This document shows, piece by piece, positions 5,029 through 36,623 of a stretch of 53,036 nucleotides of DNA. Origin of the DNA: an uncultured Methylococcaceae bacterium (GTDB lineage Bacteria; Pseudomonadota; Gammaproteobacteria; Methylococcales; Methylococcaceae); the NCBI GenBank assembly GCA_903934875.1, contig CAIZPP010000172.1:1-53036 (forward strand), given 5' to 3'. Under the pieces are notes generated by a model, which was not told the DNA's origin, did not search any database, and saw nothing but the letters and a program-made list of their open reading frames with translations. Made by a program: the position numbers and the translations under genes. How positions within the stretch are numbered: the stretch's first letter is position 1; each line of letters begins with the position of its first letter.

Positions 5029-5646
5029 TTAAATTATCAAGGAACCTTGCACCTCAGCGGTCGGCGAGAAAATTTCATAAATCACCTGACTGACAGCCCA
5101 AGGCGCGCTAGCGGTGAATTTCAAGTTAGCTTCATTGGTCACGCGTCCCAAGAAGAATACCGTTTGCTGGGTTGGGTTGGCGGGGTTGACAGCATACACT
5201 TTCACAAACACCGTGTCTTGGCTCAGATTGAAGCCAGCCAATTCAGGCAGGTTGGCACCGCTGATGGTGACAGGTTTCTGGAAGTTGCTGAAGCTGAATT
5301 GGCGGTTGAAATTAAAGCCGGTGATCGTGTCTGAGAACTGCACGACCGTCACGGTGCGGGCAACCGGTAGCCAAGTAAAAGTGGGGAAACGGCCATCAAT
5401 AATCGTGACCGTATACGCTCCCGGAGCGATCTGGCTAAAACTATAGTTGCCTTTCGCGTCAGTGGTTTGTGTTTGCAGGCAATTCGGGGCGGCTGTCACT
5501 ACGACACTTTGTGCAGAGAGGCAGAGGGTGCTTTGCGAAATGGGCTGTCCGTTTTGATCGACAACCTCGCCACTGACATAGGCACCCAACGCCGCATTGG
5601 AAGCAGCCATCAGGAAGAGTATGAGCGACAATAAATATTTGATCAC
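5029..5646 (-). CDS. Exported protein with carboxypeptidase-regulatory-like (Ig-like) domain
   Basis: This is a 205-aa protein starting at GTG 5646, with an AAAGG ribosome site about 9 nt upstream. Residues 1-22 form a signal peptide (MIKYLLSLILFLMAASNAAL). Residues about 24-110 match the carboxypeptidase regulatory-like fold: VSGEVVDQNGQPI, then NYSFSQIAPGAYTVTI, a pattern common in bacterial surface and pilus-associated proteins. The last 85 residues are a second beta-rich domain of unknown type. There is no membrane anchor or sorting signal. It sits about 51 nt downstream of the predicted start of the sigma-54 promoter, directly upstream of the giant repeat protein. A partner or accessory role for that surface protein is an inference from position. 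Confidence 0.8.
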   Translation of the reverse strand: MIKYLLSLILFLMAASNAALGAYVSGEVVDQNGQPISQSTLCLSAQSVVVTAAPNCLQTQTTDAKGNYSFSQIAPGAYTVTIIDGRFPTFTWLPVARTVTVVQFSDTITGFNFNRQFSFSNFQKPVTISGANLPELAGFNLSQDTVFVKVYAVNPANPTQQTVFFLGRVTNEANLKFTASAPWAVSQVIYEIFSPTAEVQGSLII

Positions 5647-5707: not shown

Positions 5708-5723
5708 AGCAATACATGTGCCA
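5708..5723 (-). promoter_or_regulatory. Sigma-54 (-24/-12) promoter
   Basis: Read on the minus strand the sequence is TGGCACATGTATTGCT. It matches the consensus TGGCACR-N4-TTGCW at every defined position, and the GG and GC elements are 12 bp apart. The expected transcription start is near 5697, giving a leader of about 51 nt before GTG 5646. Confidence 0.85.
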
Positions 5724-8416: not shown

Positions 8417-10906
8417 TCAATTTGGCTTTAACACCATTACCGACTCGCCATTATTATTCATACATGGTATATAAAGGCTGTTACCATCAGGAGAGAAGGT
8501 AGGATGAGGAAAGTTATTGTTGGTTTGATTGCACACATGAAGTTTTAGGACAATGCTAAATGTTTCTACCTGAATGAATGAGACATTCATACTCGTTTCA
8601 CTTAACACGATTGCGTAGTTACTATCTGGTGCAATGGCGATTGATATTGGTCCAGAATCCACTTGTATTGTTTGAACCAGAATAAACGTGTTCGCATCAA
8701 GTACAGATACCGTGTCAGTGCCAGAATTTGCCACAAACACATATTGACCATTAGGGGTCACCGCAATGGCTTTTGGATTGGCACCGACTGGAATTGTGGC
8801 AGTTACGCTTAAACTGCTTAGTTCAATCACCGACACCGTGTTATCTCTATCACTTACCACTAAGGCATACTGATTATTAGGTGTAAAGGCAATTGCGCAA
8901 GGATTTATATTCTCTAATACAACGCTTGGCAGCAGCGTATTTGATTGTACTAAAATAGGTACTATATAGCCATTGCCAGACACGTTATTACCTACACCTA
9001 TGAAAACATATTCGCCATCTGGTGTAATGGATATGAAAGTAATATCCGATCCTGCAAATTCGTGCATATATGTAGAATCGCTTTCTCCAGTGGCTAGATT
9101 AATGCGCACAATTTTTAGCATATTAGCCGCATACAGAAATGAATTGTCTGGTGTTAGGGCTGCGTTGGCATTCGCCGGTATCGGATACGTTCCTATGAGT
9201 TGTGTTGTATTAATGTCATAGGAAAATGCCGTATTGCCCTCAATTCTAAAAAGAGTGTTACCATCTGATGTGGCAAGCAATGTTGTAAAACCAATATTAT
9301 TTGCATTAGCCTGTATCTGATTTACAAGTCTTCCATTTGAAATAATATTCGCACCGTCTAAAAAAGTAATAGTACCTTGGTTATCTTCGAACCGTAGAAA
9401 TCCAAGGATGCATGTATTATTATTGGGAGCTATACAGCTAATCCAAGGGGCGTATTTCACTTGGATGTTGTTCTCCATAATCCAAGCCAAGTTAAAACTT
9501 TGTTGGGTCGTATTGCCGCTAAATAGACTATTGGCTGTGAGTGTATAACTCGACGCAAATGGAGGATGCAGTGTTTGTGTCCCTGTAGCTGGCAATGGTG
9601 TGGATTGGTCATTTTGCCATGAGCCATAGACAGATGAAACCGGCGAGTTTGCGTTTGCCGGTTCCACATTCCAGGACACATTCAGCACACCAGTCCCCAA
9701 ACTGTATGCAAATTTATTGATTATTGGAGCAGGGAAATATGACGCTGTATCTATGTTATACTCAGTTGCCACATCATTCAGCAGATATGCAGTTACCGTA
9801 TATATTGGTGCGAAAGGCGGATACATTTTAATGCTTGTATCAGTAGGTTTGAATATAGTGCTGTCCGATGTCCATGAACCTTTTACATAAAATGCCCCCA
9901 AGAAACTCCATGACAGCACAATAGAGTTGTCATTCACGTCATATTCTAATGTGGGTGGGCTATCAAAGCTGGGAGCAGGAAAATCACACGTTTGTATCAC
10001 TTGGGTATCAATACCATTGACAGTCAGTTGATATGCGCTGCTACCCCATTGCTCAGAAGTTGGGTCTATAGGCGGTAGTGTCGCCGTGTAGGAACCATCT
10101 AGTGCTATTGGCTCTTCATTGCCCCATGTGCTATAAACACTGGTAGCACCTTGGGTTGTCCAAGTCATTGCTAATTGCATGTTGTTAATATCTGGAATGC
10201 CAATAAAATTAATACTTGGTGAGACCTCTACCCTAAACTGATAGGGACCTAGTGGGTTCTCCCCTGTCTTTTTCAGTAGCAAACTAAACCAAGTTGATTC
10301 GGTAATGCTCACAATTTGTGAACTTTCATTGTCTGTTGTAGGTAAAAGATTAATGTTTCCGTAACTTATATCATAAGTCCAGCCACTCGGTCCGCTCCAA
10401 TATATTACAACTTTATCACCACAATTGATGCTAAGCGTATTTGTATAGAATGATACAGGTGTTGGGCTGTTGGGTTTATCAAAGGAGAAATCATACTCAA
10501 TACCTGTGTTTTGTGAAGTAGTATATTCATATAACTTGCATGTGAATATACCGGGGCAATTATTTACCGTAATATTATCAATTCCGAAATTCAAGCCACT
10601 AATGCCAGGGTTTATTGGGCAACCGGCATGATTACTATATGCAAATGTCACTACGAAATATTCACCTGTAGCATCATAGGCTAGACTTGAATTCCAAGAT
10701 TCCTGCGTATTGGCTATGATCGAACTGGTATCGTCGGTGGGCGTAAGATCATTGTCACCATCACCAACAGGAATGTATATCTGAAAATATCTAAGGTTGA
10801 TTGTGCTAACACTATTGTTTGTCACAGTAACCATGATGCTATAATCTGTAATTCCAGGTGTCGCATCTTGATTTTCATATATTGAGTAGTCTAGTTGGGT
10901 ATTCAT
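8417..10906 (-). CDS. Large Ig-like plus YVTN beta-propeller protein, paralogue A
   Basis: An 829-aa protein if started at the second ATG (10906), which lies 9 nt after AAGAG; the first ATG (10912) is only 3 nt away. An N-terminal beta-domain of about 150 residues (RYFQIYIPVGDGDNDLTPTDDTSS) is followed by several Ig/FN3-like modules of about 85 residues, each with SW...GA.YV.GSW and YT.TAYL signatures. The last 340 residues are YVTN-type propeller blades (AIAVTPNGQYVFVANSGTDT, TVSVIELSSLSVTATIPVG). No signal peptide, TM segment or enzyme motif is visible. It is paralogous over its whole length to the 11078 gene upstream and is the last gene of the five-gene train. A structural or binding role is inferred from the fold only. 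Confidence 0.85.
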   Translation of the reverse strand: MNTQLDYSIYENQDATPGITDYSIMVTVTNNSVSTINLRYFQIYIPVGDGDNDLTPTDDTSSIIANTQESWNSSLAYDATGEYFVVTFAYSNHAGCPINPGISGLNFGIDNITVNNCPGIFTCKLYEYTTSQNTGIEYDFSFDKPNSPTPVSFYTNTLSINCGDKVVIYWSGPSGWTYDISYGNINLLPTTDNESSQIVSITESTWFSLLLKKTGENPLGPYQFRVEVSPSINFIGIPDINNMQLAMTWTTQGATSVYSTWGNEEPIALDGSYTATLPPIDPTSEQWGSSAYQLTVNGIDTQVIQTCDFPAPSFDSPPTLEYDVNDNSIVLSWSFLGAFYVKGSWTSDSTIFKPTDTSIKMYPPFAPIYTVTAYLLNDVATEYNIDTASYFPAPIINKFAYSLGTGVLNVSWNVEPANANSPVSSVYGSWQNDQSTPLPATGTQTLHPPFASSYTLTANSLFSGNTTQQSFNLAWIMENNIQVKYAPWISCIAPNNNTCILGFLRFEDNQGTITFLDGANIISNGRLVNQIQANANNIGFTTLLATSDGNTLFRIEGNTAFSYDINTTQLIGTYPIPANANAALTPDNSFLYAANMLKIVRINLATGESDSTYMHEFAGSDITFISITPDGEYVFIGVGNNVSGNGYIVPILVQSNTLLPSVVLENINPCAIAFTPNNQYALVVSDRDNTVSVIELSSLSVTATIPVGANPKAIAVTPNGQYVFVANSGTDTVSVLDANTFILVQTIQVDSGPISIAIAPDSNYAIVLSETSMNVSFIQVETFSIVLKLHVCNQTNNNFPHPTFSPDGNSLYIPCMNNNGESVMVLKPN

Positions 10907-10941
10907 CGGCATATTCTCTTGGTAAGTTGTGAGTTATTTGC

Positions 10942-11043
10942 CGTAACCGTTTACCCCCTAGGAGGGCGGGCATCCTGCCCGCAGGAATGGCGGTCAAGAT
11001 GGCCGCGCTCCCAGGAAAAAGCAGGCGGGACTGAACGGTTACG
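10942..11043. repeat. CGTAACCGTT inverted-repeat element (102 bp)
   Basis: CGTAACCGTT (10942-10951) and AACGGTTACG (11034-11043) are perfect 10-bp termini around GC-rich stems (GGGCGGGCATCCTGCCCGC). It lies between the two propeller paralogues and may attenuate transcription into the second one. Confidence 0.7.
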
Positions 11044-11077
11044 CGTGTAGCGTGGATTGGGTTTGTAGCGGTATAGT

Positions 11078-13468
11078 TTATTCCCTGCGGAATATAATAA
11101 TCTTGCTGTAATCTGCCACACCTAGACTGTTACTATCAGGCGAGATGGCTAGAGGAATATTTTGACAGTTTACTGTCAGAGTTTGCGCCACGCTAAGGAC
11201 TTCCACATCTATCACCACTATGTTATAGGGGCTGGACACGAAGACACAACGACTATCAGGGCTAATTGCAAGTGACTGGGACAAAGACGATACCGGTATC
11301 GTTTTAACAACCGTGAAGGTAGCTATATCGATCACCGTGACCGTGTTAGAACTCGCATTCAATACAAACGCATAGCCGCCATCAGGTGTCGTTGCGATGG
11401 ATTGCGGGCTGCCATCAATCGAGATTATGTTGATTATGCTTAAGCTGCTCAGATCGAGTACTAGCACCGCATTATCTGTACATGCCACTAAGGCATACAG
11501 GCTATCCGGTGTGAATGCAATTGAAACTGGATTTTTATTTCCCAACACAATAGACTGGAGTCTAGTTTTTGATGGGGCATTTACAGGAACCAGATAGCCA
11601 TTGTTTTCAAAATCAGGTGCAACACCTATTAAAAGATATTCACTATTTGGAGAGATAGACATGCACGTAACATCCGTTCCTTGGTAACCTGGCATAGAGA
11701 TATCGATATGAGTGGTAGTGGCTAGGTGGCATCCAGTTATACTGTTTATATCTGCTGTGTACAAGCATGAATCATCTGGAGCAAGCACCACAAAATCGCC
11801 GATCAAATTTAGATAACAAGTCTTAATTTGACCTGTACCAATATCATAAGATACTGCAAAATTGGCGTTAGCATCGTAGAATATAGCAGTTTTTCCATCT
11901 GCCGTTACCAGTAGGGCTGCATAAGCTATGCTGTCATTGCCGATTCGACTTACAATATTTCCATCCGATACAACAACCGCACCGTAGTTAGGTTGACCAC
12001 ATCCAACTAGCCATGTAGTGTTGTCGATAGCAATGCAGTTAGAGTATGTCGGCTGGATTGAAATGCTTGTATCTGTCTGCCAATTGACTGGATTTAGGCT
12101 CCGCTGGCTAAATTGACCAGCGACTAAACCATAAGCTGTTAATGTATAACTAGAACTGAACGGAGTATAGATTGTTGCCGTACCTGCTGTAGGCAATGGT
12201 TCCTGCTGCCATGAGCCATTGACAGATAGCGCAATCTCTGTTGCATCCCATTGTAAAACTATGGTATTGCCACTATAATTATAAGTAAAATCTTTAATTA
12301 TAGTTGCTGGGACATAAGAAACTGTCTGAATGGTCTCTGTTGTTGAAACATCACTTAACACATAGGCAGTGATACTATATTCAGGTTCGAAAGGGGCATA
12401 ATGACTCTGTGGTTGCGATTGAATCGTATTTGATGCCCATGACCCAGTAACATAAAATGCCCCGGACACATCCCAAGACAATATAATATAATAACCAAAA
12501 TCATCTCGTTCTAATGTTCCAAGAAAGCTCTTAATCTCGGGAGGTGCAATCACACAGGTGCTAGTCGCATCAGTATCACCGCCATAGGCATGGATGGCGT
12601 ATTCAGTGCTTGTCCAATCATTGTAAGGTGCTATAGTAATAGGATTATCTGTACTGGTTAGAGCTATTGTATTTCCACCAACCCATGACCCATATGCAAT
12701 AGTGGCACCTGTGATCGTCCAGTTTAATTGCAATTGGTTTTCATTAATTACCGTGCCAGTAAAACTAATGGCTGGAATAACTCTGACCGTGAACGAATAG
12801 GGGCCAATAGGCTCTTTACCTGCCTGTTTTAGCATCATACTAAAATCAGTTGTGAAATCGATGCTCACACTTTGAGAGCTTTCGTTGTCAAGTGTGTCTG
12901 GCAGAGTTGTGCCTCCATAACTTATAGAATAAACCCAACCAACTGGTCCACACCAACAGATTACAAAATCCTCACCTGGTTTGACGTAACTAGAACTTGG
13001 ATAAAATGAAACAGATATTGGTGAGTCAACTTTCTCAATTGAAAAATCATATTCGCCCCCGGTGTTTTGTGACACAGTATATTCATACAAATTGCATGTG
13101 GCTATTCCTGGCAAGTTATTTATCGTAATATTGTCAATTGTGAAATTTAAAATGGTATTACTAGGGATTACAGGATAGCCGGCATGATTGCCGTATGAAA
13201 ATGTTATAATGAAATACTTCCCCGTTATATCATATTGTGGAGGTGGAGACATACTCCAACCCTCTGGAGCTTTGCCTATAATAGAACTAGTATCGTCGAC
13301 GGTAGTAAGATCATTGTCGCCGTCACCCATAGGAATATAAATCTGAAAATATCTAAGGTTGGTTGTGCTGCTTTCATCGTTCGTAACTGTAATTATGATG
13401 CTGTAATCATGCGTTCCTGGTATTGCATTTTCATTCTGGTATATTGCGTAGTTAAGTTGTGCATTCAT
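11078..13468 (-). CDS. Large Ig-like plus YVTN beta-propeller protein, paralogue B
   Basis: A 796-aa protein from the second ATG (13468), 8 nt after AGAGG; the ATG at 13474 is too close to that site. The layout matches paralogue A: N-terminal domain (YFQIYIPMGDGDNDLTTVDD), Ig/FN3-like modules (LSWDVSGAFYVTGSW, LQWDATEIALSVNGSW), then a C-terminal propeller (SIAFTPDSLYALVACTDNAV, SIATTPDGGYAFVLNASSN). The two copies are clearly divergent, so the duplication is old. Many Asn, Thr and Ile codons and lower GC than the neighbouring 13503 gene are evident. No export signal. The gap to the upstream gene is 34 bp, consistent with co-transcription. Function unknown. Confidence 0.85.
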   Translation of the reverse strand: MNAQLNYAIYQNENAIPGTHDYSIIITVTNDESSTTNLRYFQIYIPMGDGDNDLTTVDDTSSIIGKAPEGWSMSPPPQYDITGKYFIITFSYGNHAGYPVIPSNTILNFTIDNITINNLPGIATCNLYEYTVSQNTGGEYDFSIEKVDSPISVSFYPSSSYVKPGEDFVICWCGPVGWVYSISYGGTTLPDTLDNESSQSVSIDFTTDFSMMLKQAGKEPIGPYSFTVRVIPAISFTGTVINENQLQLNWTITGATIAYGSWVGGNTIALTSTDNPITIAPYNDWTSTEYAIHAYGGDTDATSTCVIAPPEIKSFLGTLERDDFGYYIILSWDVSGAFYVTGSWASNTIQSQPQSHYAPFEPEYSITAYVLSDVSTTETIQTVSYVPATIIKDFTYNYSGNTIVLQWDATEIALSVNGSWQQEPLPTAGTATIYTPFSSSYTLTAYGLVAGQFSQRSLNPVNWQTDTSISIQPTYSNCIAIDNTTWLVGCGQPNYGAVVVSDGNIVSRIGNDSIAYAALLVTADGKTAIFYDANANFAVSYDIGTGQIKTCYLNLIGDFVVLAPDDSCLYTADINSITGCHLATTTHIDISMPGYQGTDVTCMSISPNSEYLLIGVAPDFENNGYLVPVNAPSKTRLQSIVLGNKNPVSIAFTPDSLYALVACTDNAVLVLDLSSLSIINIISIDGSPQSIATTPDGGYAFVLNASSNTVTVIDIATFTVVKTIPVSSLSQSLAISPDSRCVFVSSPYNIVVIDVEVLSVAQTLTVNCQNIPLAISPDSNSLGVADYSKIIIFRRE

Positions 13469-13502
13469 ATTCATATCCTCTGAAGCTAAGTTTTATCATT
13501 TT

Positions 13503-16500
13503 TTATAAAAAAAGCTGTAACCAGCCTTCTCTTAGGCTAGGTGCTTGCGTCGGAAAGCGTGCCGTATCATCGGTATCGACAATGCTATCTTGCTCCCAAG
13601 TACCGCCCATCGCTTGCGTCCAACTCCATACCCCTTGGATGCCAGCCGGTTGCGGGGTGCGCAAGGTTCCCGGATCGGCCAGCGTCGGGCCGGTCTGGAA
13701 ATTGACTAACAGGTTTTTGAGGAACTCCTGCACCGTGTTGGCATCTAAGGCCACGCTGTTTACCGGCAGTATGCCCGTGTAAGCATGTACGCAACCCTGC
13801 GGGTCCAGTATCAAGGTGAGCCTGACACCGGATGCCGCATTCGGCGTGACGGCAACATCCCCTTGATAAGCTGGGTTGGCACCGCTGGTTTCCAGTATTG
13901 GCTGGATGAATGTGTCGGCAGGGTTTAATTTAAATTCGGTATGGACCGCATAGAATTTGGCGTAGTCGGATAGGAAATAGCCAATCAAACCGTCATCGCG
14001 CAGGTCGAGACTGCCCAGCCTAACCGGGAAGGACATCTTCAGCACTCCGCCGCTGTCTTGCACGATGGTGGGGTTTTCGACCGTGGAGTCCTGAGTTAGC
14101 ATGGAATTCCACAGTTGGTTGGTGATCGGATCGCCGTTCAGGGTTAAATTCAATTGCATCGACACAACCGCCAAGGGTCTTCCTATGAGCGCGGCCAAAC
14201 TGTCGTTGGCCATGCCATTTACCGGGTTGACCATCCACAGCGTCTCATCGGTTATCTGCATAAAATCACTTAATGTATCAGACCCTTGGTTGGCCAGCGC
14301 AGTGACTACCTTGTTTAAAGTCTGATTGGCAATCTGCGCCGGACTGGCCGGTGGAGGCAGGTTGTTGCCATCCGAACCCGGTCGTGGCCGCCAATTGGCC
14401 GGCGCGGTTTGTTGCGCCAATAATTCACCCAGCATAATTCCGTTGCTGTCATAAACGGCAATGCTATTATCGAGGTAATTCGGCAATAGCCAACCGCAAA
14501 TGGGGTTGCTGTTGGCGGAGGTCAGAATATCGTCACCGCTATTGTCATTGGCCAACACCGTCATATCCAGACGCGCACTTTGCGCCAAACGCGGCCCAAG
14601 CACGAAGGGGTATGCGGTGATTGATGGAATAATGACACCCGCAGGCGGTGTCAGTGCGGGACTGATTAAGGCTTGGAAGCCATATAAGGTATTGGGTTGG
14701 GATAAGTCGTAATATTGGCCGTAACTATCCAGTAACCAGAGTTGGTTTTTGGCAAACGTAACGAGACCGCCACGCACGGGGAAAAAAATATTTTGAAAAG
14801 GCAGGTCGAGGCTGGTGAGTTTGGGTGTCAAATGGTATTGGTCTTGGACTAAGTCACCGATCAATGGTGTAGGGCTTGGGCTTGAAGAACTGGGGGGCGG
14901 GAAGGTCTCCTGCGATAACAAGGTGGTCAGTTGATCGGTGAACCCCGACAAGGTCTGACCGAGGATGTCCCAACTCATCACGGTGTCCAACAGTTGTTCC
15001 ATTTGCACCGTGTCTAGCGTGCTGGACGTTGACAAATAGTTACTCAGCTTGGACTGGAACACCGTCTGCGCATAGGGGGTCACTACGGTGCGGCCCTGGA
15101 TTGGAATGGAATAGACATTATTCCCGGCATAGCCATTGCCGTTCCATTGGTAATTGCTGCCGTCGAATGTCCAGCAGGACAGGTCAAATTCTCCAGACGA
15201 ATCAAGGCTTGGATAATACTTGGCCTGCCATTCCAGCAAAATGGGCGACCAGGCTTGTTGCCATAGATCATAGCCTATAGGGCTAGGCGGCGTACCCACC
15301 CAACTATTCTGTCCGCCATCGTCATCTAGCAGTGCGGTGATCGCCGCTTTGATGGCGGCTTCTGACACTGCCGGCTCAACTTGGTTGATGATGCCTGCAT
15401 TTTGTGGGTCGCTGAAAAAGGCTTCGACGAGCAAACTTGGAATGGCCGGCACCGTTGGATACTGGTTCAGATAAGTGCCAGGTGCCGTAAAGGCTGCTAC
15501 CTTGGTAAATTCCGCTTCTGTGATGGAAAGATTGTTGACGCTGATACCCGTGACTGTCTGTCCGGGCAGGCGGCAACATAGGGTTCCGTCAGCCGTGAAA
15601 CTACCGTCCTCGCCATATTTGAGCCCGCAGCCGGCTCCCACAACGAGAACAACGGGATCGGTAGGATGCCAGTAGGGATTTGCCGTCGTACCTTTAAGTT
15701 GCAGGCCCAACGATGCGAGAGTGACGGTTGCCCCAGAATCCGTGGCGTCAGGAAATGTCCAGTTGGTGTTCGCCCAGGTGTTGGCCGCATCATTGTCGGT
15801 AGGATCGGGAAGAGCGGCCAGCAGGCTAGTCTGCGTTGCCAATAAATCGGCAACTTGCCCAAACCACGTTGGGTAGATATCATTGGCTAGCACTGGCTGC
15901 AATACGGTGTTGAAATCAGGAGAAGTAATGGGCGGGAAATCCCAAAGCGACTGGCTCAACTTTAGCCAGAGCCTATACAGTTCGCTCTGCCGGGTCTGAA
16001 GTTGGCTTTGCCCTTGGTCATAGGCGAGTTGGTCACGGTTGAGCTTACTGAGTTGCTGCAACAAGGCGGCATTTTGTGCGGGTGTGAGATTGTCATTGCC
16101 GGTCTCAACTTGGAGATCGTTAATCGCTGAAACCACCCGCCAAACCGTACCGCCCGGGTCGGTTCCAAACCAAGATTGCTCTATCTGCTGTTGAACTAGT
16201 GCAGAACCGCCCGGCACACCGTAATCATCCAGCAAATCAAGGGAAGCCGCCTGAATCAGGCTGCACAGCGTGTTACCGGCGGTGATCCATTGCGCGCTAT
16301 TGTTTGGGTCTTGCTGTCCCTCGTTGTTGGCATAACTTTGGATTAGCGCGGACAATGCATCAATGGCGGTATTGCCAATGGCTATTTGGACATTGCTGGT
16401 GTTCATTCCATTGAAAAATCCAGTGTTATAATTGGGAGGCCAAGCCACATCCGCGATAAAACTATGGTATAGGGTAGCGTTGGGCGGGTTGGTGGGCAGG

Positions 16501-17324
16501 TCTGTCCCAGCCGGGAGGCTCCATTGCAGGGTATTGAGGATGGTGTCAAAGCGCTCTTGTGCGGTTTGGCTTTGCCAATCGGCTTGGCTGTCCCAAAAGT
16601 TTGGAGTAAAGCCATCGACATAAGTGCTTACACCGGTCAGAGGATCACCCTCGGGGTTCGAATACCAGCCTACCACTAGGTAACTATAACTATAACTATA
16701 ATTGCCCGTATCCTCAGCAGGAAGATTGGTATCGACTATGGAAAATACGTTTTCCACAAATGGTTTATAGGCGGCGAACGATATATTGCCTGGACCTACT
16801 GCTTGCAGGAATAGTGGGGAGGTATTGCCAGCATCTCCCTGCCAGTTCTCTATCGGCACTGTGATGCCTAGGTTAACCCCATTGACAGTAACAGTGGAGC
16901 CATCAGAGGTGATTCCTGACGGGTTATTGGGGTCTAGGAAGGCGCCAGGGCCGGCCCCCGGTGTTTGCGTGGATTGTTGGCCGTCGCTTTGAATCACCCA
17001 AGCCGTAGTACTCAACCCGCTGTTGGCATTGGTGCCAGTTCGCACGACTAGCCAGCGATTGGGCACCAATGGGAAGTCAAACGATCCGTCGCTATTTTGC
17101 ACCCCATGGGTCAGCGCGTCGGGCAATGCCCAATGCAGGTGTATGCCGCGTGCCGGAGTGTCGGAAGAACCACTAAAAGGTGCCGGTATGGGGCTTTGGA
17201 AATTCTGCAAATTGTTATAGTCGGCATAATAAAGCGCCATGTTCTGTGTGTTGGTTGCCGAATTCACCCAAGCATCCATCGCCATCGGTACCAAGAGGCT
17301 ATTTTTATCATTTGGGAGTGTCAT
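13503..17324 (-). CDS. Giant protein of unknown family (HLHWALPDAL motif)
   Basis: A 1273-aa protein. The start is placed at ATG 17324, preceded by AAAGGAAAGG and lying 10 nt after the stop of the upstream gene; an ATG at 17372 would overlap that gene and lacks a ribosome site. The N-terminal third has a conspicuous RGIHLHWALPDALTHG segment followed by PNRWLVVRTG. The middle contains a glutamine-rich helical stretch (QLSKLNRDQLAYDQGQSQLQ), flanked by beta-rich sequence. The C-terminus is beta-rich. No signal peptide, TM segment, known catalytic motif or cysteine pairing pattern was recognised. I believe I have seen the HLHWALPDAL motif in other uncharacterised bacterial giants but cannot name a family. 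Its place between the 900-aa gene and the propellers suggests one complex. Confidence 0.8.
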   Translation of the reverse strand: MTLPNDKNSLLVPMAMDAWVNSATNTQNMALYYADYNNLQNFQSPIPAPFSGSSDTPARGIHLHWALPDALTHGVQNSDGSFDFPLVPNRWLVVRTGTNANSGLSTTAWVIQSDGQQSTQTPGAGPGAFLDPNNPSGITSDGSTVTVNGVNLGITVPIENWQGDAGNTSPLFLQAVGPGNISFAAYKPFVENVFSIVDTNLPAEDTGNYSYSYSYLVVGWYSNPEGDPLTGVSTYVDGFTPNFWDSQADWQSQTAQERFDTILNTLQWSLPAGTDLPTNPPNATLYHSFIADVAWPPNYNTGFFNGMNTSNVQIAIGNTAIDALSALIQSYANNEGQQDPNNSAQWITAGNTLCSLIQAASLDLLDDYGVPGGSALVQQQIEQSWFGTDPGGTVWRVVSAINDLQVETGNDNLTPAQNAALLQQLSKLNRDQLAYDQGQSQLQTRQSELYRLWLKLSQSLWDFPPITSPDFNTVLQPVLANDIYPTWFGQVADLLATQTSLLAALPDPTDNDAANTWANTNWTFPDATDSGATVTLASLGLQLKGTTANPYWHPTDPVVLVVGAGCGLKYGEDGSFTADGTLCCRLPGQTVTGISVNNLSITEAEFTKVAAFTAPGTYLNQYPTVPAIPSLLVEAFFSDPQNAGIINQVEPAVSEAAIKAAITALLDDDGGQNSWVGTPPSPIGYDLWQQAWSPILLEWQAKYYPSLDSSGEFDLSCWTFDGSNYQWNGNGYAGNNVYSIPIQGRTVVTPYAQTVFQSKLSNYLSTSSTLDTVQMEQLLDTVMSWDILGQTLSGFTDQLTTLLSQETFPPPSSSSPSPTPLIGDLVQDQYHLTPKLTSLDLPFQNIFFPVRGGLVTFAKNQLWLLDSYGQYYDLSQPNTLYGFQALISPALTPPAGVIIPSITAYPFVLGPRLAQSARLDMTVLANDNSGDDILTSANSNPICGWLLPNYLDNSIAVYDSNGIMLGELLAQQTAPANWRPRPGSDGNNLPPPASPAQIANQTLNKVVTALANQGSDTLSDFMQITDETLWMVNPVNGMANDSLAALIGRPLAVVSMQLNLTLNGDPITNQLWNSMLTQDSTVENPTIVQDSGGVLKMSFPVRLGSLDLRDDGLIGYFLSDYAKFYAVHTEFKLNPADTFIQPILETSGANPAYQGDVAVTPNAASGVRLTLILDPQGCVHAYTGILPVNSVALDANTVQEFLKNLLVNFQTGPTLADPGTLRTPQPAGIQGVWSWTQAMGGTWEQDSIVDTDDTARFPTQAPSLREGWLQLFL

Positions 17325-17334
17325 GACCTTTCCT

Positions 17335-20037
17335 TTAATTTGTAGGGGTAAATAACATTTGTTCTGGCACACAGACCATCTGCACCGCCAATGAGGCGGG
17401 CGTCAGCCCAGGTGAACCGGGCAGGGTTGCCTGAATGAGTTGAACCAGGCCATTATCTCCACCGGGCGTGTTGATGTTCAAAGCAGAATTATTGCCGCTG
17501 CGCAGGGTGCTTGAAATATCTACCCAAATAGACAAGTTATTCTGTTCAATGACCGTTCCAATATTACTGGATGAATACCCCGTGACACCCGGAATATAGC
17601 GCATCTCTATACCTTGATCCTCCACGCCGAATACCAAGCCTTCGCTAGGTTCGGTAAAAGTAAGCTTGACGGGTATGTCAGGGTAGAGGGCAAACAGCAG
17701 ATCACTGGCAAGCAACTCCAAACGCAAGGGTTTCATAGCGCCAAGCGCATCGTTCGCCGACCAGGCGCTGATTTCCAGATTGGGCCAACCAGCGACACCC
17801 TGTGAGCGCAACACGAAACCCGCCGGATTCAACTGAGCAGCGATTGGACTGGGTGCGTTGTATCCCAACAGCGCATCGCGGACTTCTGCCATAGCATCTT
17901 GCACCGCTTCGTATAGCTTGTTGCGCATCAGTTGTTGAAACAGCGAATCGCGGCCGGTTTGTATTCCCAAACTCAGTGCGCCATCCAATAAGGCATCCGT
18001 CCAGTTTTGGTCCAAATAGAAAAAGCGAATAGTCTCCGGGGGCAATAGACTAGGATGGGGCACCAAATTATTGAACGGCACGTTATTTAATAGGGCTGTT
18101 GCCGCCAACCAATTGATGACTTGCTGGGCATCTTGGTCGCTATCACTCACTTGTAGGCTGCTATTAACCGGTAAGCTAGCCACACCGGCATAGGTCTGAA
18201 TGTTGACACTGGTTGAGTTGATTGGAGTATCAGCGCTAACCGTAACCCAAGTGCTGCTCGTGCCATCGGGGCTGTAAATCAATATCTCAGTGCCGTTATT
18301 GATGGCTTCACTGATACCCGGTGCAGTGACTGAAAGGGAGGTGGCATTGGGTTGCAGTGGCGCGGAAAGTGTCCCCAGGTTATCCAAGCCGGCAAGATGT
18401 TGCAGCAGACTGGTGATTTGCGGCTGCTGCATTAGATTGATGATATCTTGCGGTGCCACCACCGGTTTCGCAGGTGTTGCGTCGTGAATAATCAGGGAAG
18501 CGTCCGCAGGGGTGAAGCCACCCTTCTTGCCGATTTTAGTGGCAATCGTTTGGTAAAGACCGGTCGCAAAAAAATCCTGAAATGCTTGAGTGACAATGCT
18601 TCCATCCAACAATTGCGCCAAATCGGTCACGCCTGTGGCGGTGAGGTTGCCCTGGGTGTCAATCAAGCCATCTTGGAACATTTTCGACGCATAAGCCGGA
18701 CTGTTCATGTACTCTAGGATCAGGTCTATCACGTTGTTTGCGTTGTTCCGCCAATTCAACAGGCTTTGCGTAAAGGATTTGCTGGCCAGAGCCAATGAAC
18801 GCCCGGTCTGAAAGGCGGTGGCGTAGGATAAATCGAACAGCCCCGTGTCGGTTTCAAAAATCTTGGCATCACCCGTTGAAAATGGAACGCGGGGATTAAC
18901 CGCTTGGCTAGGGCCGGTTGACTCCAAAAAGCGGGTCACTGGCACGGGCGATAGCGGACCGCGATACCAAGCGAAGGTCTGGTCACCACTGAGCATGGCG
19001 TAACTCAATGGCACATAGCCGTCTTGCAGGCGTTTTTGCACCATTTGAACGGTTGCCGATGGTTGCTCTGAGGGGGACGGACTCGGCAATGGCAAACGCA
19101 GCAGCAAGTCAGTGCCCGCATTGCTGTAGGCGGAGACTAAGTTCGTCATTAGGTCGTTAAAGCTCTGCATTGAATCCAGGCTTGAGGTATACGTCCAGCT
19201 ATATAGCGAAATCATGCGCACCGTCGAGTATTTAGTACTGTCCACCTGCGCCGGGCCGGTTTGGCTGAGGGCGGATTCAAAACCCTCCAATGAGACCAGA
19301 TGTACGATATTACCTATAGATGCCGAGGTGCTGGCCGGAGGCACACCAAACCGATTGGCAATCACGGTACTAAACCAGCCATTGGATAGATTTTCCGCCG
19401 ACAAGGCTTTATTTTGCAGGCTGACTAGCCGGGTATGGGTAAGAAAGCGCAAATCATCAATGCCAGGCGCAAGGCTGTTAAAACTGGCCACAGGAATATC
19501 GATCACATTGCAATTAATCTGTGTGGCAACTTCATCGGCTTCTAATATCAGAGTAGGCCCGAGTGTGTCTGCAGGCGGCGTTATAACCTTGTCCAAGGTG
19601 ACGGATGATGACCGGTCTCGATTTTGCTGGCTGCCCTGAGGTAGCGTTTCAGGTGATGGTAGCTCATCATCGGTAAATACCAGCAATGCAACCCAAGGGA
19701 TGGCTGTCGGGTCACTAAGGTCAAGATTACGCTCCCAAGGCAGAGACTGCTGATTCAGCACAAGCTGTGGCAAAAAAAGATGGTAATCACCCGTGGCATT
19801 GTCAGGAGGAAATACCTGGTTGACATAAGCAGGGGGCAATTGAAAACGTGGTCCCCGCACAATCAATGACTGGGATATGGGTTCCTGTGGCTGTGCGGGG
19901 ATATTGCCTGGATTACTGCCATTGACAGATAATGTCTGTGAAAGCGTGATGGTAAACTGCCCATCTTTAAGTGCAGGAACATAATTGTCGTAAAAGCTGA
20001 CTGTTATATCATTTGAATTTGTTGCGGTCTTGTTCAT
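17335..20037 (-). CDS. Large protein of unknown family, 900 aa
   Basis: A 900-aa protein with no recognised domain. The N-terminal part contains VRGPRFQLPPAYVNQVFPP, FLPQLVLNQQSLPWERNLD and a strongly hydrophobic strand PWVALLVFTDDELP. The C-terminal part has LEISAWSANDALGAMKPLRL and ends QMVCVPEQMLFTPTN. It is soluble by inspection, with no signal peptide. The start codon lies 8 nt from the edge of a family-2 repeat, and the only ribosome-site candidate (AGGTG) comes from the repeat junction. It is followed after 10 nt by the 1273-aa gene, so translation of the pair is probably coupled. Function unknown; association with the DUF6603-like neighbour is contextual. Confidence 0.8.
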   Translation of the reverse strand: MNKTATNSNDITVSFYDNYVPALKDGQFTITLSQTLSVNGSNPGNIPAQPQEPISQSLIVRGPRFQLPPAYVNQVFPPDNATGDYHLFLPQLVLNQQSLPWERNLDLSDPTAIPWVALLVFTDDELPSPETLPQGSQQNRDRSSSVTLDKVITPPADTLGPTLILEADEVATQINCNVIDIPVASFNSLAPGIDDLRFLTHTRLVSLQNKALSAENLSNGWFSTVIANRFGVPPASTSASIGNIVHLVSLEGFESALSQTGPAQVDSTKYSTVRMISLYSWTYTSSLDSMQSFNDLMTNLVSAYSNAGTDLLLRLPLPSPSPSEQPSATVQMVQKRLQDGYVPLSYAMLSGDQTFAWYRGPLSPVPVTRFLESTGPSQAVNPRVPFSTGDAKIFETDTGLFDLSYATAFQTGRSLALASKSFTQSLLNWRNNANNVIDLILEYMNSPAYASKMFQDGLIDTQGNLTATGVTDLAQLLDGSIVTQAFQDFFATGLYQTIATKIGKKGGFTPADASLIIHDATPAKPVVAPQDIINLMQQPQITSLLQHLAGLDNLGTLSAPLQPNATSLSVTAPGISEAINNGTEILIYSPDGTSSTWVTVSADTPINSTSVNIQTYAGVASLPVNSSLQVSDSDQDAQQVINWLAATALLNNVPFNNLVPHPSLLPPETIRFFYLDQNWTDALLDGALSLGIQTGRDSLFQQLMRNKLYEAVQDAMAEVRDALLGYNAPSPIAAQLNPAGFVLRSQGVAGWPNLEISAWSANDALGAMKPLRLELLASDLLFALYPDIPVKLTFTEPSEGLVFGVEDQGIEMRYIPGVTGYSSSNIGTVIEQNNLSIWVDISSTLRSGNNSALNINTPGGDNGLVQLIQATLPGSPGLTPASLAVQMVCVPEQMLFTPTN

Positions 20038-20045
20038 TCTGCACC

Positions 20046-20169
20046 TACAGCGTTTTTAATATCGAAGAGTTACTTGGTGAGTTATATCATTTTGCAAAGC
20101 AATTCACACAATGGGTGGTTTGATTGAGTTGTCCTTTATTATTTTTCTTTGTTAAGAAAAAACGCTGTG
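20046..20169. repeat. Family-2 repeat (TACAGCG termini), copy a
   Basis: This 124-bp element starts TACAGCGTTTTTAATATCGA and ends AAAAAACGCTGTG. It fills the whole gap between the stop of the 1291-aa gene (20170) and 8 nt before the start of the 900-aa gene (20037). Its first about 55 bp are nearly identical to 29807-29861, and its right end matches the sequence flanking the family-1 MITE at 46401. Confidence 0.75.
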
Positions 20170-23100
20170 TTATAGTATAAGTGGATTGCCGTTTATCCAT
20201 ATACCTGGATTGGCCGCAAAATTTGTTAGATCATCATTTGTTTGCGGGTTATATCCAAATTGTTGTATCAGAATATTATAAATATCTGTCCGAGTGGAAG
20301 TGTTTATATTAGGCCCTATGTATTGAGAACAGGAGTTTTTCACCACTATCGGCACTGGATCAGGGGCTAGGCTAGTACTGCTTAATGGCAGGTAGTTGGA
20401 TGGTTGATCTACTATATCAACTGTATAGGCTGTCGTGATGTCTATCGCTAGAGCATTATTGCCATTAGGGGTCAGTGAGGTCAATTTTGGCGTGATCGTC
20501 TGAAAACCGAACAATCGTCCATTCAGCACGGCATTTTTCTCAGGAGACGCATTCTTTGCGAGTGGTTTTCCCCATTTTGCGGCTTGAGTATTTACGATGC
20601 TCGCCGTCAGATCAAAATTTCCCGCTAGATCGTAAGTTTCCTGTGCGTCACTATCGGTTAGTGTCACGGTAAGGACCGAATGGTTCAGCGTGGCAGCCAT
20701 CGGTCGTATGCACACGTAATAATTATTCCCATCGGGACAGATATTTTCAGCCAGCCATTGGGTTTGTGCCGCCTCCGCTGCAGCGGGTGTAATATCAATT
20801 TCTGTCAGCGGGATAACGCTAAGTGTTGAGAAGGAAAAATCGGCAGGGCTGACGATCCACACAGGATTACCATTGGCATCGCTTATGGTGGAATTTACGC
20901 CACTAACTGCTGTGATTGACAGTATGGATGGGGTGCTGTTTGATGAGCCTGCGGGGTTTCCACCATTGGTATTGTTAGACTGGGGTACTAAGGTTTGTAA
21001 AAATCCCTGCCCTTTACTGTCGGTCCAGGCAATGGGTTTATTCGATGTTGAAGCCGCACTAGAACCGAATTTGATGGTGAAAGAAATGATATGCCAATCG
21101 ATATGGACTTTACCTCCCATGCGCGGCCCCCAAAGATGGAGGGTTGCGCCTAACTCAACCTTGAGCGTCACACTGACAAATAATACATGTATCCGGTAGG
21201 ATACGCCGACACTGACAGAAACCTCCGCAATATAATAAAAGGGTGACCATGTGACAATCACGTCCATTTGGGCGGTGAACCAGGCTTTCAGGCCTCCCGA
21301 ACTGAAAACAATTTGCAATCCCCCTCCTGCCATAATACAACTGGAGGTAATCGTATAATAATAATCGCCACTGATGGTGACATCTTTTTCCACCCGCCAT
21401 TTGTAACCAAGGCGCGGGACTTTTGGGTAATAAGACGGTGGCGTGAATGATGGACTATAACCCCCTAGCGTTACCACAAAATCACCGGCATGTGGATTGC
21501 TGCCAAACCAGCTATAGAATGCGAACCCGCCTGTCAAATGGCAACTGGGGTCTAATACATAGCTATTTTTACTTAATATTGCCGTGGCCTTAATCACACC
21601 CTGTGCAGGAATGATTTGAATGTCAATACCTAGCTCCGCATAGGAAAACAAGGTGCTACTCGGTGGCGAACTGGCATTGGGACTGGCGAGCGGCACGCTC
21701 ATCCAAGAATCACCTAATACGCTGATCTCCAGTTCGTTGCCAAACTCAATGTTCAACAAAGCAGAGGTATGCAAAAAGTCATACGAAGTAAAGCGCACCC
21801 CCGCCGCCAACCAGTACTCTCCCCGCTGCGGTGGAATGCTACTGTCCATTTTTGCCAATACGGCGTTAGGCGTCGGGAATGCCCAAGCCTTGCTTGTTGA
21901 GTTCTGCGTAGCGCCTAATAGGGCGGGATTGCTTAATGCCGCGACCAGTGGAAACGAACCCACCTGATCCGGGGCCGGTAGCAAAATGGCGCGGTTATAG
22001 CCGAAGCCACCTGCCAAGCCAGTGACATAGAAACACGCAGGCCCACCGATGGGCGCAAGTGCCGTGCCGAAAATAAACAGTGAGGCATATCCATCTTGCT
22101 GAGTGCCCACATAAGCATACGAACCCAGTGCCGACAATGAGAAAGTTCCGGTTTCCACTATAGCCGTGCCGTCGTATTCCGTATAGTTTTGGGTGGACGA
22201 GGCCGGTACTTTTACCAAAGCGGCATCAATGCTGATTGACCCGGCATTAAAGCTCACCCCCATCCCATCAAGGTCTACGCTGTAATCACCCAGTGTTGTT
22301 GGCGTAGTGGCCGGAATATTGACTGACAAATCGTCAAGTGTAATGCTTAATGGCCCAACGCTTATGCCACCATCAAAAAGCAGTGATAACTTATTTTCAC
22401 TGTCGATCCAGCCTATCCCTAAGGACGTGCATGCCAGCGGGCCTAGTTTGCGGTTGATGGGAAGATTTAATGGGTCGGCGGCGTTACCGTTTTGATCGTA
22501 AAGCCGTACATCGAAAGAACCTCCCTGATACCATGCCGTCGCCATGCCAAACGTCGGATTGACAGGCGTTTGGTCGCCCGGGTTTGTATCGGCATTGGAA
22601 TTGGAGTTACTTGACTGCAACAGGTTTTGTGCCACGGGGTTGCTGCCATCGCCTACGTTTCCACTCACGGCAGGCACCAGTGGAATGCCAAATTCATCCA
22701 GTTTGGCCGCAAAGCCATAAGTCCAGGACGAGGGCTCGTCCAAGGTCACCGCATTGAGGGTTGCACGTAACTGTGACCCCTGCAATGTGTAGCCTCCTTG
22801 GTTTATCAATGGATTTTGCGGGGTGCCGATAACATCAAACCCAATGCTGGAAAGCCCGAATCCTGGAGCAAAAGTATAATTACTATCGGCTGACAGGTTT
22901 AACAGGCTAAGCGTGATGCCGTCTAATGGCGGTGTAATGCCAGTTGGCATGGTGCGGGTCATCCAGTTCCCTTGGTCGGTCTCTTGCTCCAGCCACTTGC
23001 CTAGGCATAAACTGACTACAGCTTGCGTGCCTTTTTGATCATTATTCAAAGGAATATCCAACGCAACTTGTAGCCCGAAAATTGCAGAATTTCCGGTAGT

Positions 23101-24045
23101 AATGGTGCTCTTATAGAATGATATACTGCCATTGTCAGGCAGGTTCACTAGTACTTGACTGTCAGTATTATTAAGGACGTTGATTATCAGATTCTGGATG
23201 AAGTTAATTGCAATCGTCCTTGGGTCTGTGTTCTGTAATTTTTCCAACGACAGCCTGTACGTTACAGGGGTTGCCTGATTGACTGGTTGGATGAATCCCG
23301 TGTCATCAAGCAACTGTCCTGTAGTGAGTGCCGAATTCCCAATTGCCAGACGCAACCAGCTTGCCACGGTTGTATTCTGCAGTAAAAAATTTAAACAATT
23401 TGTTGCGTCAATGCTTGCAATCACCGAACTGATGGTGTCATAGCGATCCGGAGAGGTCGTGCCAGTCAAGGCCTGAAACTGCAATGACATCGTAGGTGTC
23501 GCTGCGCTAAGGTATATACAGGAATCAATCTGTATTCCAGTAAACGAAAGCGCATTAGTTGCACCCGCCACACTAAATGAAGTGCCATCAGTTTTCGCCA
23601 CGCCCAAGCCTAGTTGCAACCCTGCGTCGGTCTGGTCAAGTAGAAATTCTGCTCCTGAATTATCGAAATAGAAAAGAGGTATATATACATAAGCATTGAT
23701 AGTAACGTCATCAGATGTATATGGCAAAATGGCTCCCATTCCAATATTGCCAAAAATCGACCCCTGCTTAGGTAACACTAGGTAAAAAGGTAAATTATTA
23801 TTGCTGTCGTCAGGGTTGGGAATCTGTAGCCAATAAGTACCGGCAATAGGACTGTTTTTTATTGGGTCATCCAATACATCATAAAAAATGGAAACTAACA
23901 GGGCAAGGCGTGTATTGATGGTCTCTAAGCTATTGATAGGCGTATTAAACCAAGCTATGTCTACAGAATCGTTATTCTGTAGTAATCCAACAAACTTCCC
24001 CAAGTCGAGTAGTAATGAGTCACTAATTTGGTCTAATGTTGCCAT
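20170..24045 (-). CDS. DUF6603-like giant beta-rich protein
   Basis: A 1291-aa protein and the first gene of the five-gene train. Residues about 685-990 resemble what I know as DUF6603: GYNRAILLPAPDQVGSFPLV, WLAAGVRFTSYDFLHTSALL, YAELGIDIQIIPAQGVIKA and GPRMGGKVHIDWHIISFTIK, an alternating-hydrophobic pattern typical of a long beta-solenoid or barrel. The N-terminal half is also beta-rich with repeated NLPI/GPLSITLDD phrases. There is no signal peptide and no aromatic-terminal barrel signature. The function of DUF6603 proteins is unknown to me. It is divergent from mrcB, with a family-2 repeat occupying most of the shared 164-bp upstream region. Confidence 0.8.
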   Translation of the reverse strand: MATLDQISDSLLLDLGKFVGLLQNNDSVDIAWFNTPINSLETINTRLALLVSIFYDVLDDPIKNSPIAGTYWLQIPNPDDSNNNLPFYLVLPKQGSIFGNIGMGAILPYTSDDVTINAYVYIPLFYFDNSGAEFLLDQTDAGLQLGLGVAKTDGTSFSVAGATNALSFTGIQIDSCIYLSAATPTMSLQFQALTGTTSPDRYDTISSVIASIDATNCLNFLLQNTTVASWLRLAIGNSALTTGQLLDDTGFIQPVNQATPVTYRLSLEKLQNTDPRTIAINFIQNLIINVLNNTDSQVLVNLPDNGSISFYKSTITTGNSAIFGLQVALDIPLNNDQKGTQAVVSLCLGKWLEQETDQGNWMTRTMPTGITPPLDGITLSLLNLSADSNYTFAPGFGLSSIGFDVIGTPQNPLINQGGYTLQGSQLRATLNAVTLDEPSSWTYGFAAKLDEFGIPLVPAVSGNVGDGSNPVAQNLLQSSNSNSNADTNPGDQTPVNPTFGMATAWYQGGSFDVRLYDQNGNAADPLNLPINRKLGPLACTSLGIGWIDSENKLSLLFDGGISVGPLSITLDDLSVNIPATTPTTLGDYSVDLDGMGVSFNAGSISIDAALVKVPASSTQNYTEYDGTAIVETGTFSLSALGSYAYVGTQQDGYASLFIFGTALAPIGGPACFYVTGLAGGFGYNRAILLPAPDQVGSFPLVAALSNPALLGATQNSTSKAWAFPTPNAVLAKMDSSIPPQRGEYWLAAGVRFTSYDFLHTSALLNIEFGNELEISVLGDSWMSVPLASPNASSPPSSTLFSYAELGIDIQIIPAQGVIKATAILSKNSYVLDPSCHLTGGFAFYSWFGSNPHAGDFVVTLGGYSPSFTPPSYYPKVPRLGYKWRVEKDVTISGDYYYTITSSCIMAGGGLQIVFSSGGLKAWFTAQMDVIVTWSPFYYIAEVSVSVGVSYRIHVLFVSVTLKVELGATLHLWGPRMGGKVHIDWHIISFTIKFGSSAASTSNKPIAWTDSKGQGFLQTLVPQSNNTNGGNPAGSSNSTPSILSITAVSGVNSTISDANGNPVWIVSPADFSFSTLSVIPLTEIDITPAAAEAAQTQWLAENICPDGNNYYVCIRPMAATLNHSVLTVTLTDSDAQETYDLAGNFDLTASIVNTQAAKWGKPLAKNASPEKNAVLNGRLFGFQTITPKLTSLTPNGNNALAIDITTAYTVDIVDQPSNYLPLSSTSLAPDPVPIVVKNSCSQYIGPNINTSTRTDIYNILIQQFGYNPQTNDDLTNFAANPGIWINGNPLIL

Positions 24046-24080
24046 AAATTTAATCCTATTTCAGCGTTTTTACTATCAGA

Positions 24081-24202
24081 TACAGCGTTTTCAACATCAA
24101 ATAGTTACTTGATAGTGGGTATGTAAGCACAGGTTATTCGGTTAACCTGAAGGGTTAACGGAATGTCTGTTTTAGGTATATTTTTAAGATGAAAACGCTG
24201 TA
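24081..24202. repeat. Family-2 repeat, copy b
   Basis: This 122-bp element runs from TACAGCGTTTTCAACATC to GAAAACGCTGTA. It contains the GTTAAC-N7-GTTAAC dyad at 24136-24164 and ends 7 nt before the mrcB start. Another TCAGCGTTTTTACTATC fragment lies just outside its left edge (24061-24077). A nearly identical inverted copy is at 29966-30083. Confidence 0.8.
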
Positions 24203-36584: not shown

Positions 36585-36623
36585 ACCGATAGGCTTTTCT
36601 GAATGAAGGAGTTAGCCAATCCC

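Follow-up and report, generated by a model that had tools for sequence, protein, structure and literature searches.

Do five very large genes that follow one another on the same strand of a bacterial contig encode a single system and, if so, of what kind? The question is raised by a 53,036-nucleotide stretch of the 5.4-Mb genome of an uncultured Methylococcaceae bacterium (GenBank assembly GCA_903934875.1, contig CAIZPP010000172.1; the whole stretch is hereinafter called the window), in which a sequence-only reading had singled out five consecutive minus-strand genes, denoted here A to E (Table 1), as a candidate undescribed system of proteins in a fixed order. Our comparison with other bacteria reveals that distant lineages keep A, B and C adjacent and in one order, usually with a further protein behind them that differs between relatives. 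This pattern suggests an as yet undescribed device of several proteins for recognizing something outside the cell. The five genes are present where that reading had placed them, and the intergenic gaps (132, 10, 28 and 165 bp for A-B, B-C, C-D and D-E, respectively, from the coordinates, with C counted from its ATG) bear out the range of 10-165 bp given there. The lengths reported for A, B and C stand, at 1291, 900 and about 1273 amino acids (aa), and those of D and E had to be corrected from 796 to 798 and from 829 to 831 aa. The GTG start of C at 17372 overlaps B, and the likely start is the ATG at 17324 (1273 aa). Chance open reading frames (ORFs) can be ruled out because 3 cassettes encode near-full-length relatives of all three core proteins, with identities of 78-86%, and because A matches DUF6603 with an E-value of 2e-140.

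Relatives of C were sought in genome contigs, in the genomes of 61 relatives (own genome included), in plasmid records, in 398 genomes of the phylum and in 337 genomes of the class to which G295 belongs (genomes and loci are labeled G and L, respectively); Actinomycetota and Bacillota are represented by plasmid records alone. Among the 21 loci examined that hold both B and C, A, B and C follow one another in this order on one strand at 20 (the window, L002, L003, L017, L011, L012, L013, L014, L064, L015, L018, L039-L046 and L078), and the carriers of this core comprise Methylococcales, other Pseudomonadota, Streptomyces, Embleya and Paenibacillus. In this count, one record of S. clavuligerus stands for three, L012 and L064 are two of the 3 places with C in Embleya NBC_00896, and G039 and G710, which hold fragments of C only, are left out. 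The exception, L016, lacks A and holds B together with a C that is divided between two ORFs; in several lineages, B itself consists of two adjacent ORFs. The identity of C to its counterpart in the window drops to 26-31% in the distant rows, and therefore the gene order has outlasted long divergence. The homologs are thus not single and scattered. Judged by gene order, the conserved unit is A-B-C rather than the set of five, because some loci have two copies in the slot of D and E, others an unrelated protein there, and others nothing. The proposal that large proteins encoded in a fixed order make up an undescribed system is accordingly supported for A-B-C, and does not extend to D and E, which are not part of one fixed set and occupy a variable fourth slot. 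As for the two fragments, that of G039 lies, by eye, directly behind the apparent start of a giant A and may have been left by a deletion or created by a join in the assembly, and that of G710, a 44-residue match to C in a genome with no DUF6603 found, is read as a relic.

A is a member of PF20248 (DUF6603), as the sequence-only reading had surmised: in the Pfam scan, it scores 469.1 bits against a gathering score of 27, and this family, whose title gives its function as unknown, is the only one it matches. B and C, assigned there to unrecognized families, indeed have no model above the cut-off in Pfam, where B has one sub-threshold row, and no NCBIfam model. For A-C there is no PHROG, A-E yield 0 PADLOC-DB matches up to E 0.1, and profiles of A, B and C retrieve nothing from the PDB sequences up to E 10 (hmmsearch). 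In the open-licence literature, we found no paper on DUF6603 or PF20248, and keyword searches there did not find the A-B-C gene system in print. Compared against the libraries used, the A-B-C core matches no known kind of system and appears new as a gene system. A phage or virus origin was considered and rejected, there being no PHROG for A-C, no phage-record match for A or B, and nothing related to A, B or C among viral contigs.

The tie between A and C extends to their distribution. In an even sample of 398 genomes (own included), C occurs in 9 and DUF6603 in 9, and these are the identical nine genomes. In the 337-genome sample, which shares at least G295 with the former, DUF6603 occurs in 3 genomes (G295, G691 and G669) and C in 3 (G295, G691 and, as a fragment, G710). 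Pairwise distances of A and of C over 19 loci correlate with r 0.94, a correlation that joint inheritance of neighbors alone would give. The length of A varies widely, from 848 aa in Streptomyces NBC_01276 (a 2547-bp coding sequence) to open frames of 3247-3390 aa in G295, G337, G130, G306 and G091, which are counted from the first start and are possibly overstated. Profile self-comparison shows that the giant A repeats internally, over 355 columns (179-549 against 396-795, probability 97.2) and again over 172 columns (1285-1475 against 7-246, probability 79). In G130, G295 and G337, a small gene (205-296 aa) lies upstream of A, and a similar-looking one (by eye) precedes the G039 fragment. 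In Embleya NBC_00888 (L014, 11960-17482), A seemingly runs on behind DUF6603 into propeller-like repeats, seen by eye and with no Pfam propeller match, which would link A and a propeller in one protein.

The fourth slot is where the loci differ. At 10 of the 21 (the window, L002, L003, L017, L011-L014, L064 and L078), the protein behind C shares the N-terminus of D and E by model. Profiles built from the N-termini of D/E in Methylococcales and from the Streptomyces/Embleya fourth genes match each other over 202 columns with probability 95.1, and the Streptomyces/Embleya model alone recovers 7 of 7 Methylococcales D/E proteins from a set of 23 (E 1.5e-11 to 2.2e-4), with the controls, namely A, B, C and the SdrD-type surface protein encoded at 1-4872 of the window, at E ≥0.8 or unlisted. 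When L018 and L039 are included, the comparison gives a probability of 91.7 over 175 columns, against 0.1 and 0.2 for unrelated pairs. Fourth genes with a homologous N-terminal domain thus occur in Methylococcales, Streptomyces, Embleya and also in G691. Behind this domain, the C-terminal ends differ: a YVTN propeller in the window, a PLAT domain in L011, and an F5/8 type C domain in L064, where C itself also carries one. The combination of a constant N-terminal domain with differing binding-type ends is found, at the level of sequence, in Methylococcales, Streptomyces/Embleya and G691, and weakly in L039/L040. In the window, both D and E, described before as two paralogs with YVTN repeats, carry TIGR02276 above its NCBIfam cut-off of 27.85 (E 50.3 bits, D 36.2 bits). 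In the structural model of D residues 1-240 (predicted local distance difference test score, pLDDT, 82.5), a beta-sandwich extends to about residue 150 and is followed by an Ig-like module.

The core and the slot also differ in how far they have diverged. Pairwise comparison of the cassettes in the window, L002, L003 and L017 gives identities of 78-90% for A, B and C. The orthologous D/E of L002, L003 and L017 are 63-86% identical per region, a range that leaves out two 54-residue comparisons (20 and 30%) in the second copy of L002, which is truncated by the contig end. The D and E of the window are far more divergent, with only 34-53% identity to the D/E of these three loci; between themselves, they are 65% identical in the N-terminal domain and 39% in the propeller. 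On these identities, the simplest reading is that the cassette of the window changed its fourth-slot genes, the alternative being faster evolution. The cassette is present in 3 of the 7 genomes of the genus, each time with other neighbors, so that three contexts are represented. L003 (JACDZF010000045.1) belongs to a metagenome-assembled genome labeled Desulfocapsa, and its A, B and C are 78-84% identical to those of the window (78% in A and C); this cassette may reflect horizontal transfer or a misbinned contig.

The five proteins of the window are also alike in composition, with 2.5-4.4% lysine plus arginine (K+R) and isoelectric points of 4.1-4.3. The SdrD-type surface protein is similar (3.0% and 4.3, respectively), seven other neighbors have 9.8-20.1% K+R, and a MauG protein has 6.1%. 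Core proteins of S. clavuligerus and G059 contain 3.8-5.4% K+R. In agreement with the earlier statement that signal peptides are lacking, no N-terminal hydrophobic segment was detected in A-E by a crude hydropathy scan, for which no dedicated signal-peptide predictor was used.

We propose, with a probability of roughly 40%, that a mobile cassette encodes a multi-protein recognition device that combines a constant scaffold with swappable recognition subunits. A, B and C would form the obligatory scaffold, in which A would be the beta-rich component of very variable length, repeat-built when giant, and B and C its constant partners. D and E would dock on this scaffold via their common N-terminal beta-sandwich, the Ig-like modules would serve as spacers that hold out a ligand-binding end of variable type (a propeller in the window, PLAT or F5/8-type C in other loci), and that end would recognize a target outside the cell. 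Because no signal peptide was seen, the device would leave the cell by lysis or through an unknown exporter. In favor of this proposal are the fixed order and shared distribution of A-B-C, the N-terminal domain common to fourth genes with differing ends, the greater divergence of D and E in the window, the change of neighbors among congeners and the surface-like composition. Under this proposal, the proteins would bind one another, D and E would have been exchanged and not only have evolved fast, and we infer that A-E would form one physical assembly, of the kind just outlined. Only tentatively do we go further and suggest a new proteinaceous targeting particle, the scaffold of which would consist of three proteins and have no relation to phage tails, pili or secretion systems, and which would be encoded by a mobile cassette that crosses phyla and exchanges its tip gene to alter recognition.

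Several observations weigh against the proposed recognition device. In G669, the search found DUF6603 without C, and there are no matches to the B and C models within 19.9 kb. The fourth slot is not universal. In L039/L040, the fourth genes match the D-type only weakly (L039 with E 2e-5 to the Streptomyces/Embleya model), the fourth genes of L039 together with L018 give a profile probability of 9.9 against the D-type, and that of L018, the product of which ends in Fib_succ_major, has no D-type match in an independent test (E 1.4); by eye, the layout of the L018, L039 and L040 fourth proteins is similar to the D-type. The slot of L043-L046 is held by an unrelated large protein family that is propeller-like by eye, with a model match for L043 and no Pfam family in the three proteins scanned. 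That of L041 contains a frame of 880 aa that remains unclassified and seems, by eye, to start with a signal sequence, and no fourth gene was recognized in L015, L016 and L042. PLAT, F5/8 type C and propeller domains are present also in intracellular and enzymatic proteins. The composition of the window proteins is not general either: A-C of Paenibacillus contain 9.8-10.6% K+R, and in G295 the values are 10.1% for C and 9.4% for the fourth protein. Finally, fold prediction for A residues 501-1291, from a three-sequence alignment with two close relatives, gives a mean pLDDT of 26.8. The DUF6603 gene of G669 (L077, 11711-19900) is itself divergent and not part of a triad; its neighbors are other genes, and the large protein encoded ahead of it matches pre-toxin TG below the threshold.

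The best placed of the alternatives, in our view unlikely, is a complex for the handling of lipids or of other hydrophobic substances. In it, the beta repeats of A would form a groove or shell of amphipathic character, B and C would be partners, and the fourth protein would target the complex to a surface. Such a function would fit the two-residue hydrophobic alternation of A, which is the strongest in the core (power ratio 1.49, compared with 0.98 for B, 0.91 for C, and 0.82 and 0.89 for two control proteins) and reaches 1.61 in A of S. clavuligerus, as well as the internal repeats of the giant A relatives, the PLAT domain in one fourth gene, and the beta-ketoacyl synthase near the cassette in G250 and G691 (in G321 by sequence start only). 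However, alternation shows beta strands only and is displayed by D and E, too (1.37 and 1.43), the model of DUF6603 has a pLDDT of only 26.8, and the beta-ketoacyl synthases were noted at individual loci rather than in a systematic search. More doubtful is a conflict or defense system that acts between microbes or against phages, possibly by effector delivery or sensing. The patchy spread of the cassette, with its 3 of 7 congeners and different genomic sites, would fit such a system, and so would the TIR/NB-ARC gene beside L002, the CATRA/CHAT genes that L013 has some 5 kb upstream, and the lone DUF6603 of G669 behind a large protein whose pre-toxin match remains sub-threshold (15.7 bits, cut-off 23.5). 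Yet, A-E have no PADLOC match and no toxin or nuclease domain in the Pfam and NCBIfam scans, and the sole remotely relevant Pfam match among 20 flanking ORFs is DUF1780, a ‘putative endonuclease’.

An intracellular beta-protein shell or storage body, in which the fourth protein would bind cargo and not outside targets, seems less probable again: such a location would account for large, apparently soluble proteins in which no signal peptide or N-terminal membrane segment is seen, but the very low K+R content resembles that of the surface-protein neighbor, the domains that form the variable ends are for the most part extracellular ones, and the strong divergence of D and E suggests changing targets. 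A tail-derived device, contractile or not, with its other genes elsewhere in the genome, is quite improbable, because the tail-fiber-like logic of the tip, a VgrG-like ORF (read by eye) about 12.5 kb from the G006 cassette and annotated baseplate genes about 9 kb upstream in Paenibacillus are set against the lack of PHROGs for A-C, of phage-record matches for A or B (C was not searched there) and of viral-contig relatives of A, B and C, and against the unrelated genes that separate the G006 ORF from the cassette.

The surroundings of the cassette were described as free of secretion, phage-tail and toxin genes. This holds for the 20 flanking ORFs, none of which has a secretion, phage-tail (sheath, tube, baseplate) or toxin family above the Pfam cut-off, with one sub-threshold phage_tail_N row for ORF 5029-5646; a surface protein of the SdrD type does lie nearby, on the minus strand, where it extends over at least 1624 aa and runs off the window. 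Farther away are two adjacent proteins of 719 and 776 aa (36603-38762 and 38772-41102), which begin alike and have no Pfam match that exceeds the cut-off, and a 1154-aa protein (48402-51866) with no Pfam match at E 0.01. At other loci, a TIR-NB-ARC protein (L002, 110-1123) adjoins the cassette in G005, and beta-ketoacyl synthases lie near the cassettes of G250 (L061) and G691 (L078), in the former together with an M64 peptidase and a sub-threshold metallo-beta-lactamase match.

Control of the five genes by sigma-54 through the PAS regulator at 6087-8222 was considered and rejected: with the -24/-12 consensus, the only perfect site in the window (5709-5723, minus strand) precedes the 5029-5646 gene, near sites are at chance level (78 vs 78.5), and in G006 the PAS regulator sits with surface-protein genes, not beside the cassette. 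This site and the 5029-5646 gene are divergent from the PAS/sigma-54 activator and are followed by the SdrD-type protein, an arrangement that is the same in G006. Promoter-like sites number 40 in the window, against 28.2 (standard deviation 6.4) in shuffled sequences, and terminator-like sites 12 against 15.8; neither was used for conclusions. Rfam yields nothing at the gathering score in the window. Two gaps had been said to contain only small repeats; repeats are present, and the correction is that they are copies of dispersed genomic repeats, of which the one in the D-E gap resembles repetitive extragenic palindromic (REP) elements. The two approximately 123-bp repeats have similar ends (CAGCGTTTT), and each has at least 39 other strong copies in the genome, among the 40 that were scored out of more than 700 candidates (726 for the A-B gap); an exact-pattern search gave 3 forward matches and 1 reverse match. 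In the three closest relatives, the A-B gap is 12 bp, as opposed to 132 bp in the window.

Table 1. Coordinates of the cassette genes, their domains and the associated repeats in the window
Feature	Position	Strand	Description
Gene A	20170-24045	-	1291 aa, ATG start; DUF6603 protein, first core gene
DUF6603 domain of A, residues 530-1040	20926-22458	-	PF20248, 469 bits, E 2.1e-140
Gene B	17335-20037	-	900 aa, unrecognized family; two ORFs in several lineages
Gene C	13503-17372	-	Unrecognized family; 1289 aa from GTG, 1273 aa from ATG at 17324
Gene D	11078-13474	-	798 aa; fourth-slot protein with N-terminal domain, Ig-like region and YVTN propeller
N-terminal beta-sandwich of D, residues 1-150	13025-13474	-	Structural model and profile match; putative docking domain
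Ig-like region of D, residues 151-465 (approximate boundary)	12080-13024	-	First module modeled to residue 240; the rest is a sequence pattern only
YVTN propeller region of D (approximate boundary)	11081-12079	-	TIGR02276, 36.2 bits vs cut-off 27.85
Gene E	8417-10912	-	831 aa; paralog of D with the same layout
Dispersed ~123-bp repeat, most of the A-B gap	20046-20168		DNA search of the genome
Dispersed ~123-bp repeat between mrcB and A	24080-24202		DNA search of the genome
REP-like dispersed repeat, D-E gap	10942-11043		GC-rich; 28 further matches in the genome

It is unusual for core proteins without a characterized family to be kept together across Pseudomonadota, Actinomycetota and Bacillota, and the binding-type domains in the fourth slot differ between relatives, so that a list of hypothetical proteins becomes a testable system. 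Through A, this analysis ties a family of unknown function, DUF6603, to B and C as its constant partners, neither of which is represented in the four profile libraries used. The N-terminal domain of D may share the fold of YcnI/DUF1775, a copper-binding beta-sandwich: the best solved match of the model (pLDDT 82.5) is YcnI (8um6_A, Z 11.8, root-mean-square deviation 2.2 Å over 120 aligned residues), followed among unrelated structures by 3esm (Z 10.8) and others below 10. At 14% identity, with no DUF1775 row for D or E up to E 1 in the Pfam scan and many unspecific Ig-like matches of the D N-terminus in Foldseek, this likeness of a predicted structure would concern the fold only, with no function implied; the N-terminal histidine of YcnI can have no counterpart in D if the start methionine is kept. 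A further comparison is with the modular Ig/propeller adhesins, for example of the SdrD type, which share with D and E the Ig-like spacers, the variable binding domains and the low K+R content, whereas D and E have no signal peptide or anchor that could be seen and stand behind C in the loci examined. Phage tail fibers and receptor-binding proteins likewise combine a constant attachment part with an interchangeable binding end, a likeness drawn here from sequence only. Tail fibers lack signal peptides, and none was seen in A-E either. Unlike tail fibers, the cassette has no PHROG for A-C and is not accompanied by tail genes within the 20 flanking ORFs that were scanned, and its base would consist of three giant uncharacterized proteins. 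By analogy, the proposed device would thus resemble both modular adhesins and phage tail fibers in its logic, that of a constant base with a swappable tip.

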